Source: Fluviicola sp. (GTDB lineage Bacteria; Bacteroidota; Bacteroidia; Flavobacteriales_D; Crocinitomicaceae). Taken from it: DNA of 64,000 nucleotides. Within the stretch, counting starts at the first letter, position 1, and every line of letters begins with the position of its first letter. The translations under genes were made by a program, and so were the position numbers. The DNA lies in assembly GCA_002734065.2 (NCBI GenBank), contig NVXU02000054.1, forward strand, positions 62,001-126,000, given 5' to 3'. The notes under the pieces were generated by a model. It was not told the DNA's origin, searched no databases, and worked only from the letters and a program-made list of their open reading frames with translations. This document shows, one piece after another, positions 15,010 through 25,747 of the stretch.

Positions 15010-15292
15010 TTTTGAAGAGGAGTTAAGGAGTTAAGGAGAAGTCGTTGTTTGTTAGGGGAAGTTAAGAAGACAGGAGTTAAGGAGTTAAGGAGAAGTCGAT
15101 TCTTGTTAAGGGAAGTGAAGAAGACAGAAGTTAAGGAGTTAAGAAGAAGTTGAGGCTTATTTGGGGGAATGAAGAAGACAGAAGTTAAGGAGGCAAAAAG
15201 ACGGATCCCTTCTAACTTCTTAACTTCTAACATTCTTAACTTCTTAACTCCTAACATTCTTAACTTCTTAACTTCTTAACTAACGCTCTCTT
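15010..15292. repeat. 54-bp tandem repeat and TTAACTTC arrays between murC and ftsQ
   Basis: Four copies (the last partial) of a 54-bp unit containing GGAGTTAAGGAGTTAAGGAG start at about 15019, 15073, 15127 and 15181. They are followed at 15206-15292 by the reverse-complement motif CTTCTTAACTTCTTAAC in several copies, which reaches into the last codons of murC (VKKLRS). The two halves can pair as a large hairpin. Because 54 is a multiple of three, the minus strand is open from 15257 to 15006 as an 83-codon frame with an 18-aa repeat. I treat it as a repeat-derived frame, not a proven gene. Confidence 0.75.
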
Positions 15293-17817: not shown

Positions 17818-17845
17818 CATCACTCATCACTCATCACTCATCACT
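17818..17845. repeat. ATCACTC heptanucleotide satellite at the 3' end of ftsW
   Basis: About four copies of the 7-nt unit ATCACTC, overlapping the final codons and stop of ftsW. Same unit as at 12866 and 25691. Confidence 0.6.
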
Positions 17846-19000
17846 TTTCTTCCCTTGTTTCACCGCTATTGCTTGCACCATTCCCAACGCAAATGTCGTC
17901 GTTATCATTGCTGAACCTCCCATCGCCAACAAAGGCATATTCTGACCTGTTACTGGGAAAATCCCCGTGCATACCAGCATATTGACACTTGCCTGAACCA
18001 ATATTAACACGCCAACTCCAATGCAAACATAGGTATCGAAAAGGTTGTCTGATGCCAAGCCAATGCGCATGATTCTGAACAGTAAAATGAGGTACAATAA
18101 AATCAAAACAAAAGACCAGAACGGGCCCATCTCTTCCACAAAACTGGCGTAGTAAAAATCTGCGTAGGCTTCTGGTAAATATCCTTTCAGTTGACCCTTG
18201 CCTATTCCTTTTCCAACTATTCCAAAATTCTCCGTTGTTATTCTGCCATTATAAATTGCCAACTTTGCGTTCATTGCTTGGGCGTTTGCAATCACGTTAT
18301 TGTCATCGTCAATTCTATTTAGAATTCTATTCTCCCATGTTTCGTAGCGAGGCAATAGGTTTAGGTCTGGAATGGCTTTGTGAATTAGCACGACAAATAG
18401 CAACAAAGCAATTCCACCGCCAATGAGGCTTGCTATTTTTAAAAACGGTACTTTTCCGATGAAAAGCATGACCAAACCTATTCCAAATACGATTCCAGCT
18501 GTTGAAAAATTATCCTTAAAAATCAATCCACTAATAATAAGGATAGGAATTATAACTGGCCAAAAACCTTCTTTCCAGTTGTCTAATAATTTTTTCTTCT
18601 TGACAAGCAAGCGTGAAACGTAAATAATCATTGCCAGTTTTGCGAAGTCAGAAGATTGGAAAGTCAACCCAACAAACGGCACTTTTAACCAACGGCCTGC
18701 ACCGTTTACTTTCGCTCCGAACAGTAAAGTAAAAAGTAATAAAGCCACTGCTAAATAAAAGGCAAATTTCGAAAGTTGCGAAAAATACTTTGGGTCTTTT
18801 AAATGCACCCAATACATGGCTCCGAAACTTAGTCCTATATATATGGCATGCTTAAACAAGTATTTGAAAGGGGTTCCACCTTCTGTTTTTACTAAAATAT
18901 CAACGAAACTGTAAACGCTGACCAAAGAAAACGCCAGCATAATGAGTGTAATCACCCAGATGACTTTGTCTCCTTTTAAATATTTTAGTAATTCTTGCAT
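17834..19000 (-). CDS. ftsW: lipid II polymerase FtsW (SEDS family)
   Basis: 388 aa multi-spanning membrane protein with about 10 hydrophobic helices. SEDS signatures are present: GRWLKVPFVGLTFQSSDFAKLAMI early (the FtsW/RodA PS00428-like region lies later), and ASVNMLVCTGIFPVTGQNMPLLAMGGSAM near the C-terminus, which is diagnostic. FtsW polymerises lipid II into glycan strands with FtsI. It follows the unknown 157-aa gene with only 3 nt between them. FtsW rather than RodA is chosen because of its place in the dcw cluster. Confidence 0.95.
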   Translation of the reverse strand: MQELLKYLKGDKVIWVITLIMLAFSLVSVYSFVDILVKTEGGTPFKYLFKHAIYIGLSFGAMYWVHLKDPKYFSQLSKFAFYLAVALLLFTLLFGAKVNGAGRWLKVPFVGLTFQSSDFAKLAMIIYVSRLLVKKKKLLDNWKEGFWPVIIPILIISGLIFKDNFSTAGIVFGIGLVMLFIGKVPFLKIASLIGGGIALLLFVVLIHKAIPDLNLLPRYETWENRILNRIDDDNNVIANAQAMNAKLAIYNGRITTENFGIVGKGIGKGQLKGYLPEAYADFYYASFVEEMGPFWSFVLILLYLILLFRIMRIGLASDNLFDTYVCIGVGVLILVQASVNMLVCTGIFPVTGQNMPLLAMGGSAMITTTFALGMVQAIAVKQGKKSDE

Positions 19001-19003
19001 TCT

Positions 19004-19477
19004 TTAAAACAGCGAAATATAGTGTTCAAATTCTTCTTTGTCTTTCTTAGCATTTGCTCCCATTGTCGTAAACAAAAAAGCGCATTTCTCTTTTTTCATG
19101 GCTTTGATTAATTCCAAAGCATGAGATACACCTTCTAAACAGACGATGTTTTTAATCTTATCTAATGTTTCTTTTTTGAGGTTGAGAATTGGGTTGTCGT
19201 GCACAATGATAGTTTCAATCGACTTTGCCAATTCTGGTTGAATGTCCAAGCAATTGATAATTTGCTCGTGATTTCCCACCCAGACGATATCGAAAGGCAA
19301 TGATTGCAAAGCAGAACTCAGCGCATCCATTTGCGGATTGATCCAAGAAAATGTATCCATCCCAAGAATTTTCCCATGCGCGCACATAGCGTTGACTTGC
19401 AACGCATCTTGCAATCCTTCTTCTCGCGAGCGCAGTAATTGCTCTTCAGTCGTAATTTTAGAAACCTTCTGACTCAT
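19004..19477 (-). CDS. uncharacterised dcw protein, possible stand-alone Mur ligase C-like domain
   Basis: 157 aa; I recognise no named family. It lies between murD and ftsW, with its ATG overlapping the murD stop (TAATG) and 3 nt before ftsW, so it is clearly part of the operon. By eye, the part from PFDIVWVGNHEQIINCL to the end parallels the MurD C-terminal domain encoded just upstream: KPCVWIVGG, then KAIICLGK matching ETIIVHDN, EIIVEADSALEAVAYG matching NIVCLEGVSHALELIK, DETVLLSPACAS matching KCAFLFTTMGAN, and GNEFKKAVKSL matching KEEFEHYISLF. The MurD loop between the last two blocks is largely missing, so ligase activity is not expected. N-terminal residues 1-60 look helical and are unlike MurD. 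It may be a domain-duplication derivative used as a regulator or scaffold (inference). Confidence 0.75.
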   Translation of the reverse strand: MSQKVSKITTEEQLLRSREEGLQDALQVNAMCAHGKILGMDTFSWINPQMDALSSALQSLPFDIVWVGNHEQIINCLDIQPELAKSIETIIVHDNPILNLKKETLDKIKNIVCLEGVSHALELIKAMKKEKCAFLFTTMGANAKKDKEEFEHYISLF

Positions 19478-20829
19478 TACAGTGATTTTACTGCTTTCTT
19501 GAACTCGTTTCCTCTTTCTTCGTAATTCTCATACAAATCAAAACTTGCACAAGCAGGAGAAAGTAAAACCGTTTCATCCTTGCTTGCTAATCGGTATCCG
19601 TAAGCAACAGCTTCCAATGCAGAGTCTGCCTCAACGATTATTTCTACGTCGTTTTGGAATGCTTCAATGATTTTCTTATTGTCTTTTCCTAAACAAATGA
19701 TTGCCTTTACCTTATCGGTAACGAGGTTGGATAATTCAGAATAATCATTCCCTTTATCGACACCGCCAACGATCCAAACGCAAGGTTTATCCATGCTTTC
19801 TAATGCAAACCAAGTTGAATTGATGTTGGTTGCTTTTGAGTCGTTAATGAACTCGATTCCGTGCACCTTTGCAACGAATTCTAATCGATGTTCTACATTG
19901 ACGAAGTCAGTTAAGCTTTCTCTAACTGATTCTTTTCTAATCTCTAAAATTCGAGAAGCAATACCTGATGCTAATGAATTTTGGGCGTTGTGTTTACCCT
20001 TAAGCGCTAAATCGTGGATTGACATAGTGAATTGTTGTTTGTTGTTTATATTAATTATTATTTGTTCTTGTTTATTGATAAAACCGCCTTGTTCAAGCTC
20101 TTCATTCATGGAGAATGGTGCAACTTTCGATAGCAGATTTCTTTTTTCTAATTCTTTGCGTATAATTGGGTCGTCGTAATTATAAATTGCCCAATCATCG
20201 GCTGTTTGGTTTTGCAGAATGCGAAATTTCGATTCTGTGTATTTCTGCATGTCGTTGTCGTATCGGTCCAAATGGTCGGGAGTGATGTTGAGCAACATCG
20301 CGATATCTGCTTTGAAGTCAAACATTCCGTCGAGTTGAAAAGAACTGAGTTCTAAAACATACCAATCGTAATTTTCTCTTGCCACTTGCTTGGCAAAACT
20401 TTCTCCGATGTTTCCTGCTAATCCAACATTGACTCCTGCATTTTTGAGAATGTGATGCATTAGTAAAGCGGTGGTTGTTTTACCATTGCTCCCGGTGATG
20501 CAAATTGTTTTTGCAGTGTTGTAGTAACCTGCAAATTCAATTTCAGAGACAACCTTTATTCCATTCTCTTTAATTGTGAGAATATTCTTTGCATCATCTG
20601 GAATTCCGGGGGACTTCACTACTAAGCCTGCTTGAAGAATGCGTTGCATCGAGTGCGTTCCTTCTTCCCATTCAACGGCCAATTTATCGAGCGTGGTTTT
20701 ATAGTCCGCACCGATTTTACCAAAGTCAGAAACAAAGACATTCCAACCTTCTTTCTGCGCAAGAATAGCTGCTCCGACACCGCTTTCTCCGGCACCTAAA
20801 ATGGCGATATGTTGACCTTTTGTAATCAA
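19477..20829 (-). CDS. murD: UDP-N-acetylmuramoylalanine--D-glutamate ligase
   Basis: 450 aa, normal for MurD, which adds D-glutamate to UDP-MurNAc-L-Ala. Motifs: ILGAGESGVGAAILAQ (N-terminal Rossmann), CITGSNGKTTTALLMHHIL (P-loop), ELSSFQLDG and NITPDHLDRYDN in the central domain, and FINDSKATNINSTWFAL with IVGGVDKGNDY and SPACASFDLYENYEERG in the C-terminal domain. All key regions are present. It begins 1 nt after the mraY stop and ends overlapping the unknown 157-aa gene. Confidence 0.98.
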   Translation of the reverse strand: MITKGQHIAILGAGESGVGAAILAQKEGWNVFVSDFGKIGADYKTTLDKLAVEWEEGTHSMQRILQAGLVVKSPGIPDDAKNILTIKENGIKVVSEIEFAGYYNTAKTICITGSNGKTTTALLMHHILKNAGVNVGLAGNIGESFAKQVARENYDWYVLELSSFQLDGMFDFKADIAMLLNITPDHLDRYDNDMQKYTESKFRILQNQTADDWAIYNYDDPIIRKELEKRNLLSKVAPFSMNEELEQGGFINKQEQIIININNKQQFTMSIHDLALKGKHNAQNSLASGIASRILEIRKESVRESLTDFVNVEHRLEFVAKVHGIEFINDSKATNINSTWFALESMDKPCVWIVGGVDKGNDYSELSNLVTDKVKAIICLGKDNKKIIEAFQNDVEIIVEADSALEAVAYGYRLASKDETVLLSPACASFDLYENYEERGNEFKKAVKSL

Positions 20830-23538: not shown

Positions 23539-25650
23539 CTATTCTAATGTAATTTCAATTCGTTTTCCGTATTCAATGGATGTTTCTGGCGCGATAGATT
23601 GCAGAACCACTCGTCCGAATCCTTTTATTTTCACTGCTAAACCTGCATTTTCTAATAAGAAAACAGCATCCCTTGCTGTCATCCCTCTGACATCTGGAAC
23701 TGTTTCTTTTTTGATGCTGATTTTGCTCGTTTTTACTTTCGCTCCTCTGCTATCTGTTTTTATCCATTCTGCATCTGTTGTAGAAGAGAATGGAATGTTG
23801 AGCAATCTGTAAATGGAGAGAATGTCATAGCGATTACCATCTTTAGAAATTGGCAATTTTTTCTTCACCTCATTGCCTGCGTTGACTGCTTTGTGATATT
23901 GCAAACTGGATGCGTAAACCTTGTTGGCAATGGCGGTAAAAACTGTTCCCGAAACCTTTGCTCCGTAGATGTCTTCTTGCGGACCAGATACCACAACAAT
24001 GCAAGAATAAAGAGGGTCTTGAGCAGGAAAATAACCGCAGAATGATGCTTGGTATTTCTTATTTCCTGCCTCGCCGTAACTTCTGTCATCGTTGAGAACA
24101 AGAGCTGTCCCTGTTTTGCCTGCTATATCGAAGAATGCGGATTTTAATGCAGAACCCGTTCCTCTTTTTACGACACCTTCGAGGCAAATTTTAAGGTCTG
24201 CCAATGTTTTGTCTGAGCAAATTTTATCCTTGATAATTTGCGGAGGGTAAGTTTCAATGACCTCATTCTCACGAATAATTTCTTTCACAAATTGCGGACG
24301 AACCAGAGTTCCGTTATTGGCAACAGCATTGTAGAATGCTAAAGTTTGCAAGGGTGTTTGTTGCACTTCGTAACCGATTGCCATCCATGGCAAAGAAATT
24401 CCCGACCAGTTTTTCATTCCCGGCTCGTAAAGTGTTGGTGTTGGTTCACCTTTTAAAGCAATGCCTAAACTGTCTCCCAAACCAAAACTTTTTAAGCGGT
24501 CAATGTATGTTTGAGGTTCTCTTTTATAGGCGTCATTAACTATTTGCGAGAACACATTTGACGACTTCTCAAAAGCTTGTTGAACGGTAATCATTCCGTA
24601 ACCACCGTAGTGAGAATCTTTGAGTTTTGCATCGTAGAATTTATAGACTCCTTTTGCATTGACAATGTCAGAAAGTTTCACTTTTCCATCTTCGAGCAAT
24701 GCCATTAAGGATGCCAACTTAAAGGTTGATCCGGGGACTTCTTTCGTTCCAATTGCTTGATTGTATGCTTCGTGATAATTTCCTTTGCTGTCACGTTTTA
24801 AGTTAACGATTGCTTTGATGTAGCCCGTTTTCACATCCATTACGATGACACATCCGTTCTTTGCTTCTTGGTTTTTAAGTTGCCTAAGCAGCTCAGTGTG
24901 AGCAACTTCCTGTATTTCTTTATCGATGGTAGTGATTACGCTTGCACCTTCGACTGCTTCTTTCGTAATAGGACCGATTTTCTTCCAGCCGGTAGAGATT
25001 TTTTGTTCAACTTGCTCACCTTCTTCCCCTTTTAAGAACTCATTGAATGCCCCTTCGATTCCAACTTTTGAGACTTTACCATCTCTTTGTCGAACATAGC
25101 CCAAGGTTCTTTTCATCAATTCTCCATGCGGTCTTTTGCGAATAATTGTTTCTTCGTTGTCGATCAACCCCCCTTTAAAACGACCTTCTTTGAAGATAGG
25201 GAGAGTGTGTAATTTCTTACGCTCAATGTTCGACGCTTTTTTCTTTAGAAGAAGATACCTTTTCTTTGCTTTTCTGCCTTTGCGAATATATACTTCATAT
25301 TCTCGTGCTGTTTTCGCAGGAAATAATTTTGCCAATTCTTCAGAAAGGTTAGAAATTTCCTCATTGAATAATTTCTCTTTGATTACGGTTGGGTCTATAT
25401 GGATGTCGTAAAAAGAAACAGAAGTTACAAGCGGTGTGTAGTTGGCATCGAGAATTTGACCACGACGAGGAGCTCTTTTTGTGATGCGCGTCGGCATTTT
25501 TGAATTGATTTCAGACGAAGAATTAAGTTCCGGAGTGCCATTGCCAAATTGAATGCTCACAGTTTTGATAAAAACCACCAACATCAAGATAACAAACCCG
25601 AAATAAATCAGGTAAGCTCTTAGGTATATGTCTTTTTTTTCTGTTGTCAT
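23539..25650 (-). CDS. ftsI: penicillin-binding protein FtsI/PBP3 with C-terminal PASTA domain
   Basis: 703 aa division transpeptidase. One N-terminal membrane helix (residues about 10-30) is followed by the PBP dimer domain (APRRGQILDANYTPLVTSVS) and the transpeptidase domain. Catalytic motifs: SxxK at Ser308 (PGSTFKLAS), SxN in KSSNVFSQI, and KTG in IAGKTGTALVLND. A single PASTA-like domain closes the protein (VPDVRGMTARDAVFLLENAG, then GRVVLQSIAPETSI). FtsI cross-links septal peptidoglycan made by FtsW. It is 82 bp downstream of ftsL, the gap being filled by the heptanucleotide satellite. Confidence 0.97.
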   Translation of the reverse strand: MTTEKKDIYLRAYLIYFGFVILMLVVFIKTVSIQFGNGTPELNSSSEINSKMPTRITKRAPRRGQILDANYTPLVTSVSFYDIHIDPTVIKEKLFNEEISNLSEELAKLFPAKTAREYEVYIRKGRKAKKRYLLLKKKASNIERKKLHTLPIFKEGRFKGGLIDNEETIIRKRPHGELMKRTLGYVRQRDGKVSKVGIEGAFNEFLKGEEGEQVEQKISTGWKKIGPITKEAVEGASVITTIDKEIQEVAHTELLRQLKNQEAKNGCVIVMDVKTGYIKAIVNLKRDSKGNYHEAYNQAIGTKEVPGSTFKLASLMALLEDGKVKLSDIVNAKGVYKFYDAKLKDSHYGGYGMITVQQAFEKSSNVFSQIVNDAYKREPQTYIDRLKSFGLGDSLGIALKGEPTPTLYEPGMKNWSGISLPWMAIGYEVQQTPLQTLAFYNAVANNGTLVRPQFVKEIIRENEVIETYPPQIIKDKICSDKTLADLKICLEGVVKRGTGSALKSAFFDIAGKTGTALVLNDDRSYGEAGNKKYQASFCGYFPAQDPLYSCIVVVSGPQEDIYGAKVSGTVFTAIANKVYASSLQYHKAVNAGNEVKKKLPISKDGNRYDILSIYRLLNIPFSSTTDAEWIKTDSRGAKVKTSKISIKKETVPDVRGMTARDAVFLLENAGLAVKIKGFGRVVLQSIAPETSIEYGKRIEITLE

Positions 25651-25690: not shown

Positions 25691-25747
25691 ACACTCATCA
25701 CTCATCACTCATCACTCATCACTCATCACTCATCACTCCTCACTCTT
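25691..25747. repeat. ATCACTC heptanucleotide satellite between ftsL and ftsI
   Basis: About seven tandem copies of ATCACTC. On the minus strand the array begins within the last codons of ftsL and fills most of the gap before ftsI. Confidence 0.75.

Follow-up and report, generated by a model that had tools for sequence, protein, structure and literature searches.

A probable stand-alone and degenerate paralogue of the MurD C-terminal domain encoded between murD and ftsW in Fluviicola

An open reading frame for 157 amino acids, here called X, lies between murD and ftsW in a contig of Fluviicola sp., and the question it raises is what this protein is and what it could do between these two genes. 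The window that we analysed, meaning the whole stretch of 64,000 nt, carries the order murD-X-ftsW on the minus strand (Table 1); the gene after X, which we take to be ftsW, has its ATG 3 nt beyond the X stop codon. The window MurD has a complete C-terminal domain of its own (about residues 314–450), in which every checked motif is present. Tandem arrays were also seen in the window: a 54-bp repeat of 3.2 copies (15021–15192) in the gap downstream of murC, a 24-bp array adjoining it (15209–15281) that reaches the murC 3′ end, a (CATCACT)4 heptamer array at the ftsW-murG junction (17818–17845) that reaches the ftsW 3′ end, and a (CACTCAT)7.7 heptamer array (25692–25745) just upstream of the ORF at 23539–25650.

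Table 1. Features of the murD-X-ftsW locus, in window positions.
Feature	Position	Strand	Description
X, gene for a probable stand-alone, degenerate MurD C-terminal domain	19004..19477	-	ORF, 157 aa + stop, ATG start
murD	19477..20829	-	ORF, 450 aa; Pfam; TIGR01087, 396 bits; motif table
ftsW (presumed)	17834..19000	-	ORF, 388 aa; directly downstream of X
TAATG junction, murD stop/X start	19475..19479	-	One shared base
X residues 10–28, N-terminal stretch	19394..19450	-	hhalign match to MurD from residue 290, before the hinge
X residues 35–45, GKILGMDTFSW	19343..19375	-	Most conserved motif of window-type copies
X residues 133–150	19028..19081	-	Remnant of MurD SPACAS...ENYEERG, middle gone (alignments)

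Relatives of X were collected from the window's GTDB family, where 89 of 150 genomes held a match at E 0.0036 or below (counted from the matches listed). The 74 window-type genes came from 70 of these 89 genomes, from L002, and from three genomes without a match in which the gene was picked by position alone (L085, L086 and L089); at six loci with weak matches (L062–L067) the ORF was likewise chosen as the one in the gap. The alignment A1 holds 55 of the 74 sequences, similar ones and two cut short by the start rule being omitted. ftsW was the next gene downstream at all 74 loci, with a gap of at most 355 nt, and murD lay directly upstream at 71. Among the 61 genomes that fell short of the E threshold, 19 were inspected: murD abutted ftsW in 15 (gap −19 to 50 nt), in one the gap of 197 nt contained no ORF, and the other three had a diverged ORF at this place. 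Window-type copies share a conserved patch, GKLWGMDVFSW. Its counterpart in X is aligned where MurD has GIEFINDSKAT, D41 falling on the Asp of NDSKAT (Asp317, E. coli numbering), and G35, K36, D41, F43 and W45 are each at least 90% conserved in A1, as are R18 and L22 in the N-terminal stretch.

Direct searches gave X no family, in agreement with a preliminary description of the sequence, which had recognized none. X matched nothing significantly in Pfam or NCBIfam, had no Mur match in Pfam at E 10 and did not reach the gathering cut-off of PF02875 (Mur_ligase_C); none of the 55 A1 members matched a Mur family in Pfam at E 0.1. The best piece found by BLASTP between X and the neighbouring MurD was only 9 residues long (E 0.11). 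Pairwise search thus finds nothing usable, and any likeness is invisible by pairwise sequence alone. When the genome was searched with TIGR01087, murD alone exceeded 211.95 bits, and X was absent from the 11 matches. The A1 profile reached MurD in PDB weakly (3lk7, E 0.41, rank 5); the plant homeodomain and ribosomal S2 chains placed above it were rejected as weak noise. TsaD (E 0.13) and MNNL (E 0.16) were likewise rejected as the Pfam family of X, their scores being at chance level, and so were PsaE and the other scattered Pfam matches of A1 members, which occurred in at most two of 55 sequences each and without consistency. A confident match to some other family, named in the preliminary description as a refuting result, was not found for X or A1 in Pfam, NCBIfam or PDB.

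Profile-profile comparison, one of the checks that the preliminary description had proposed, related X to MurD. A1 matched the MurD C-terminal domain (MurD_C) with a probability of 96.5% (P 8.8e-10, score 60.4), and it matched MurD_C from 33 loci of other orders in the class at 96.8% (P 2.3e-10). With all 74 window-type rows against 86 MurD rows, the match was 85.6% (P 5.5e-6) and paired X 10–140 with MurD 290–428. As controls, 60 column shuffles gave at most 8.6% and a score of at most 23.1, reversed MurD_C gave 0.7% (score 15.6), FtsW 0.3% (15.6) and the other two domains of MurD 1.2% (19.7). Chance resemblance was rejected on the score of 60.4 against these shuffles. When nine diverged rows were removed, the match to MurD_C was 88–93% with a score of 41–47 (40 shuffles, at most 21.4), and the genus alone (16 rows) gave 39–40% with a score of 30.9 (40 shuffles, at most 22.3). 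Furthermore, the A1 HMM matched 126 of 154 full-length MurD proteins of the examined loci, with the best stretch in the last 165 residues in all 126, and the matches listed other than X across 299 genomes of the order were MurD (for example G142, G114 and G064; E 5e-6 to 7e-5).

The preliminary description had paired five blocks of X with MurD. Four of the pairs (X/MurD: DIVWVGN/CVWIVGG, ETIIVHD/KAIICLG, SHALELIKA/SALEAVAYG and FLFTTMGA/VLLSPACA) were reproduced by the unsupervised profile-profile alignment; the fifth, EFEHYISLF/EFKKAVKSL, lies beyond the end of the local alignment and so was not confirmed by it. It had also confined the likeness to about the last 95 residues, which proved real but too short, as the likeness starts at residue 10. 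X and the C-terminal domain of MurD (PF02875; the C third of TIGR01087) align collinearly along about 130 columns, hinge region included, and have a core hydrophobic pattern in common, and their genes adjoin; X differs in being a separate gene without the N-terminal and central domains.

Outside the window's family, genomes of the order encode between murD and ftsW what is plainly a MurD C-domain on its own; 37 of these less diverged proteins were aligned as A2, and further families of the class have the same kind of gene there. At E 0.01, which is not the gathering cut-off, 31 of the 37 matched Pfam Mur_ligase_C (best 4.5e-10), and L126 scored 32.3 bits against a cut-off of 28.4. The C third of TIGR01087 was matched by 36 of 37, L126 scoring 129 bits there, below the full-length 211.95. 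Searched against PDB, the A2 profile ranked 11 MurD sequences first, all with E of 3.3e-23 or better (best 5.7e-30). Next came five designed repeat proteins, whose E was 1.8e-6 at best and none of which had a stretch passing alone. A1 matched A2 at 98.9% (P 2.9e-17, 139 columns), and the genus alone (16 rows) matched A2 at 97.7% (P 1.6e-12). We regard these relatives, which form a graded series at one and the same locus, as decisive for homology, with the window copy as the degenerate end of the series. Taken together, these comparisons indicate that X is almost certainly a paralogue, by ancestry, of the C-terminal, D-glutamate-binding domain of MurD.

A survey of dcw clusters, also proposed beforehand, showed that a lone MurD C-domain gene between murD and ftsW recurs across the order and the class. 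In the class sample, 31 of 99 genomes held a lone copy (<260 aa, A2 match at E 1e-6), which is a lower bound because the A2 search misses the window's own X; 29 of these 31 copies directly follow murD, and 28 of the 31 loci were inspected. No lone copy was found in 68 of the 99 genomes, and in seven class genomes without X that were inspected, murD adjoined or overlapped ftsW in all seven. In the phylum sample, the A2 search found a lone copy in none of the 75 genomes outside the class, and none at its threshold in the 24 class members, the window genome included; the gene is therefore far from universal in the class. Two partial A2 matches in one genome of the phylum sample (G466) were taken as a MurD cut by contig ends. 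Eight families of the order have retained X between murD and ftsW, and 17 further families of the class have it next to murD.

Among 144 placed copies, 131, the window's included, lie between murD and ftsW, a count that takes in the first copies of tandem pairs and L125, where another ORF intervenes. Six of the rest are beside ftsW only, two beside murD only and five near neither. One of the murD-only pair, L184, is near a contig end, and the other, L180, does have ftsW, a limit of the placement rule; the five near neither gene are extra or lone copies (G361, G399, G403, G407 and G443). Lone copies with no murD or ftsW nearby were noted at L183, L185, L187, L188 and L189, in class families f16, f54 and f58. 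In six genomes of three genera (G013, G033, G048, G209, G251 and G399), murD is not directly adjacent and X still adjoins ftsW, while the reverse case, X beside murD with ftsW moved, had no clear example among the placed copies. In genus g14 (L046, L047 and L051), X is beside ftsW in all three genomes, but murD lies 6–9 kb off in two of them and on a separate contig in the other. In genus g54, L125 has an extra 375-aa ORF between murD and X, and in the L123 genome murD ends about 2 kb ahead of X; X adjoins ftsW in both. Two tandem lone C-domains occur between murD and ftsW in families f2, f4, f5 and f8 (L130–L136, L138 and L139). The second tandem copy in f2, f4 and f8 starts with a conserved tail like SFTIHKGKKSQ.

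The age of the duplication was approached with a quick maximum-likelihood tree of 53 of the 70 non-window-type copies and 40 of 155 MurD C-domains; window-type copies were kept out because they are too diverged. One branch parted all 53 copies from all 40 MurD sequences, with moderate support (SH-aLRT 79) in a tree that has several long branches, and about 30 changes were needed when the copy/MurD labels were shuffled on it. The single branch favours one old duplication, neither recent nor local and spread over the class, over repeated recent ones, and the patchy distribution suggests many losses. These results suggest that X split off long ago between murD and ftsW in the window's class, presumably Bacteroidia, and has been inherited since, with many losses on the way.

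We then compared the residues kept and lost, E. coli numbering being assigned through motif matching. MurD was nearly invariant over 14 checked sites (155 rows). Lys348 was kept in 154 of 155 MurD sequences versus 4 of 70 less diverged copies, being lost in 66. The same 70 copies kept Pro411 in 70, Asp317 in 63, Arg425 in 59, Thr321 in 50, Arg302 in 49, Ser415 in 44 and Lys319 in 41, and Asn316 and the SP loop were widely kept; Asp317, Lys319 and Arg425 are presumably MurD site residues. HRLE, NDS, SP and RG stay in the majority of less diverged copies, and most of the GGxDKGN loop is gone together with W340, N384, K386 and F430 (window MurD numbering). Window-type copies have lost HR, NDSKAT except for its Asp, SPACAS and ENYEERG, and both Lys348 and Ser415 are absent from the window protein in the A1/A2 alignment. 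The absence of the ENYEERG segment from X had been pointed out before and was borne out by the alignment; since relatives retain it, this is a loss within the window's own lineage. The roles of Lys348, Thr321, Ser415 and Phe422 in MurD, with Lys348 and Ser415 binding D-Glu, are given in the excerpted text of PMC3527612. The profiles, the intermediates and the loss of Lys348 agree with the preliminary picture of a ligase C-domain that was duplicated and disarmed and now stands by itself between murD and ftsW. As a lone C-domain would be unable to ligate and the D-Glu lysine is lost, X is most likely not an enzyme, and a binding role is the most likely one.

Less diverged copies keep the hinge and the nucleotide-facing motifs, so that they might dock on the ATP-loaded central domain of a Mur ligase as a dummy lid. 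X would then take the place of the enzyme's own C-domain on the central domain of MurD, or of a different Mur ligase, with ATP bound there, and slow or gate the reaction. In the less diverged copies the hinge HR, NDS, SP and RG positions are mostly intact but Lys348 and most of GGxDKGN are lost, and Arg302 is described as a handle for C-domain rotation that contacts ADP (excerpt of PMC4816537). However, the hinge HR and most such residues are gone from window-type copies, so a lid would not be the shared function unless the function has changed; a lid suits the less diverged copies more than it does the window copy, and as an account of X we consider it unlikely. X could instead be a ligand sensor that binds a nucleotide or precursor and signals the state of the pathway to FtsW or MurD. 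The wide retention of Asp317, Asn316 and the SP loop, and the conserved D41 of the window protein at the Asp317 position, would suit a sensor. The substrate loop is gone, however, and the nucleotide site is only partly present in a lone Mur ligase C-domain, which makes a sensor quite unlikely.

Selection was estimated against L002 (Bacteroidetes bacterium isolate Dive100_bin10.67), a relative at 82% identity. For X, dN was 0.106 and dS 1.85, compared to 0.039 and 0.78 for murD and 0.045 and 1.08 for ftsW (over the part present on the L002 contig). The dN of X is thus 2.7 times that of murD, and its dN/dS is about 0.06 with the frame intact, a rough value because it comes from one pair with dS near saturation. 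X is under strong purifying selection, yet it evolves faster than its neighbours. A pseudogene was rejected on the low dN/dS and the intact frame. A duplicate decaying without function, which the fast divergence and patchy presence might suggest, is very unlikely in view of the same dN/dS, of the new motif, at least 90% conserved across 55 sequences, and of the retention of the locus in so many families of the order and class. An unrelated alpha/beta protein with chance or convergent likeness would account for the missing pairwise similarity and family match, but profile scores far over the decoys and the intermediates at the same locus make it extremely improbable.

The preliminary description had suggested that X could regulate MurD or bring it to FtsW. 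Our preferred reading of the role, possible rather than probable, is that X is non-catalytic and serves the MurD-FtsW precursor machinery as an adaptor or regulator. X would be made in step with MurD through the stop/start overlap and would act through contact with some other protein of the precursor pathway, to which it binds. Co-production with MurD and the usual FtsW neighbour make an adaptor between the two the first choice. The window lineage has lost the docking residues and gained a new patch, so a plain adaptor is more likely there, and X may link MurD to the membrane-bound FtsW/MurG step. That X stays by ftsW when murD moves is a weak hint towards FtsW, from three independent events only, and distance correlations single out no partner (partial r: FtsW 0.36, MurD 0.33). 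The explanation as a whole, an old, freed MurD C-domain that is not an enzyme and serves as adaptor or regulator in the precursor pathway, is in our estimate a serious candidate, at somewhat less than an even chance.

Known systems offer partial parallels. MurT, which is related to the Mur ligases, works together with a partner; unlike the lone C-domain X, it is a multi-domain ligase relative. MurT/GatD is an amidotransferase according to the excerpt of PMC6085368. A MurE-MurF fusion and a MurG scaffold are described for Bordetella in the excerpted part of PMC6420597, and the likeness to X lies in an extra architecture that holds cytoplasmic Mur enzymes together; whole enzymes are fused in Bordetella, whereas in X one domain is doubled and freed. 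No description of such a lone MurD C-domain protein was found among the papers listed by searches of the open-licence PMC literature. In many lineages of the class, peptidoglycan precursor synthesis might include an undescribed subunit, non-catalytic and derived from the freed third domain of MurD, that docks on Mur ligases in trans, hands the pathway to FtsW and is doubled in some families, although we hold this broader proposal to be doubtful. It has long been asked whether the cytoplasmic Mur ligases assemble into a complex, and how such a complex connects with the membrane steps (excerpts of PMC4816537 and PMC6420597). A lone MurD domain that is encoded between murD and ftsW and has its substrate loop destroyed is a ready-made candidate for this link and gives it a direct test. 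The finding also cautions that a short fragment resembling MurD in genomes of this kind can prove to be a real, conserved gene.
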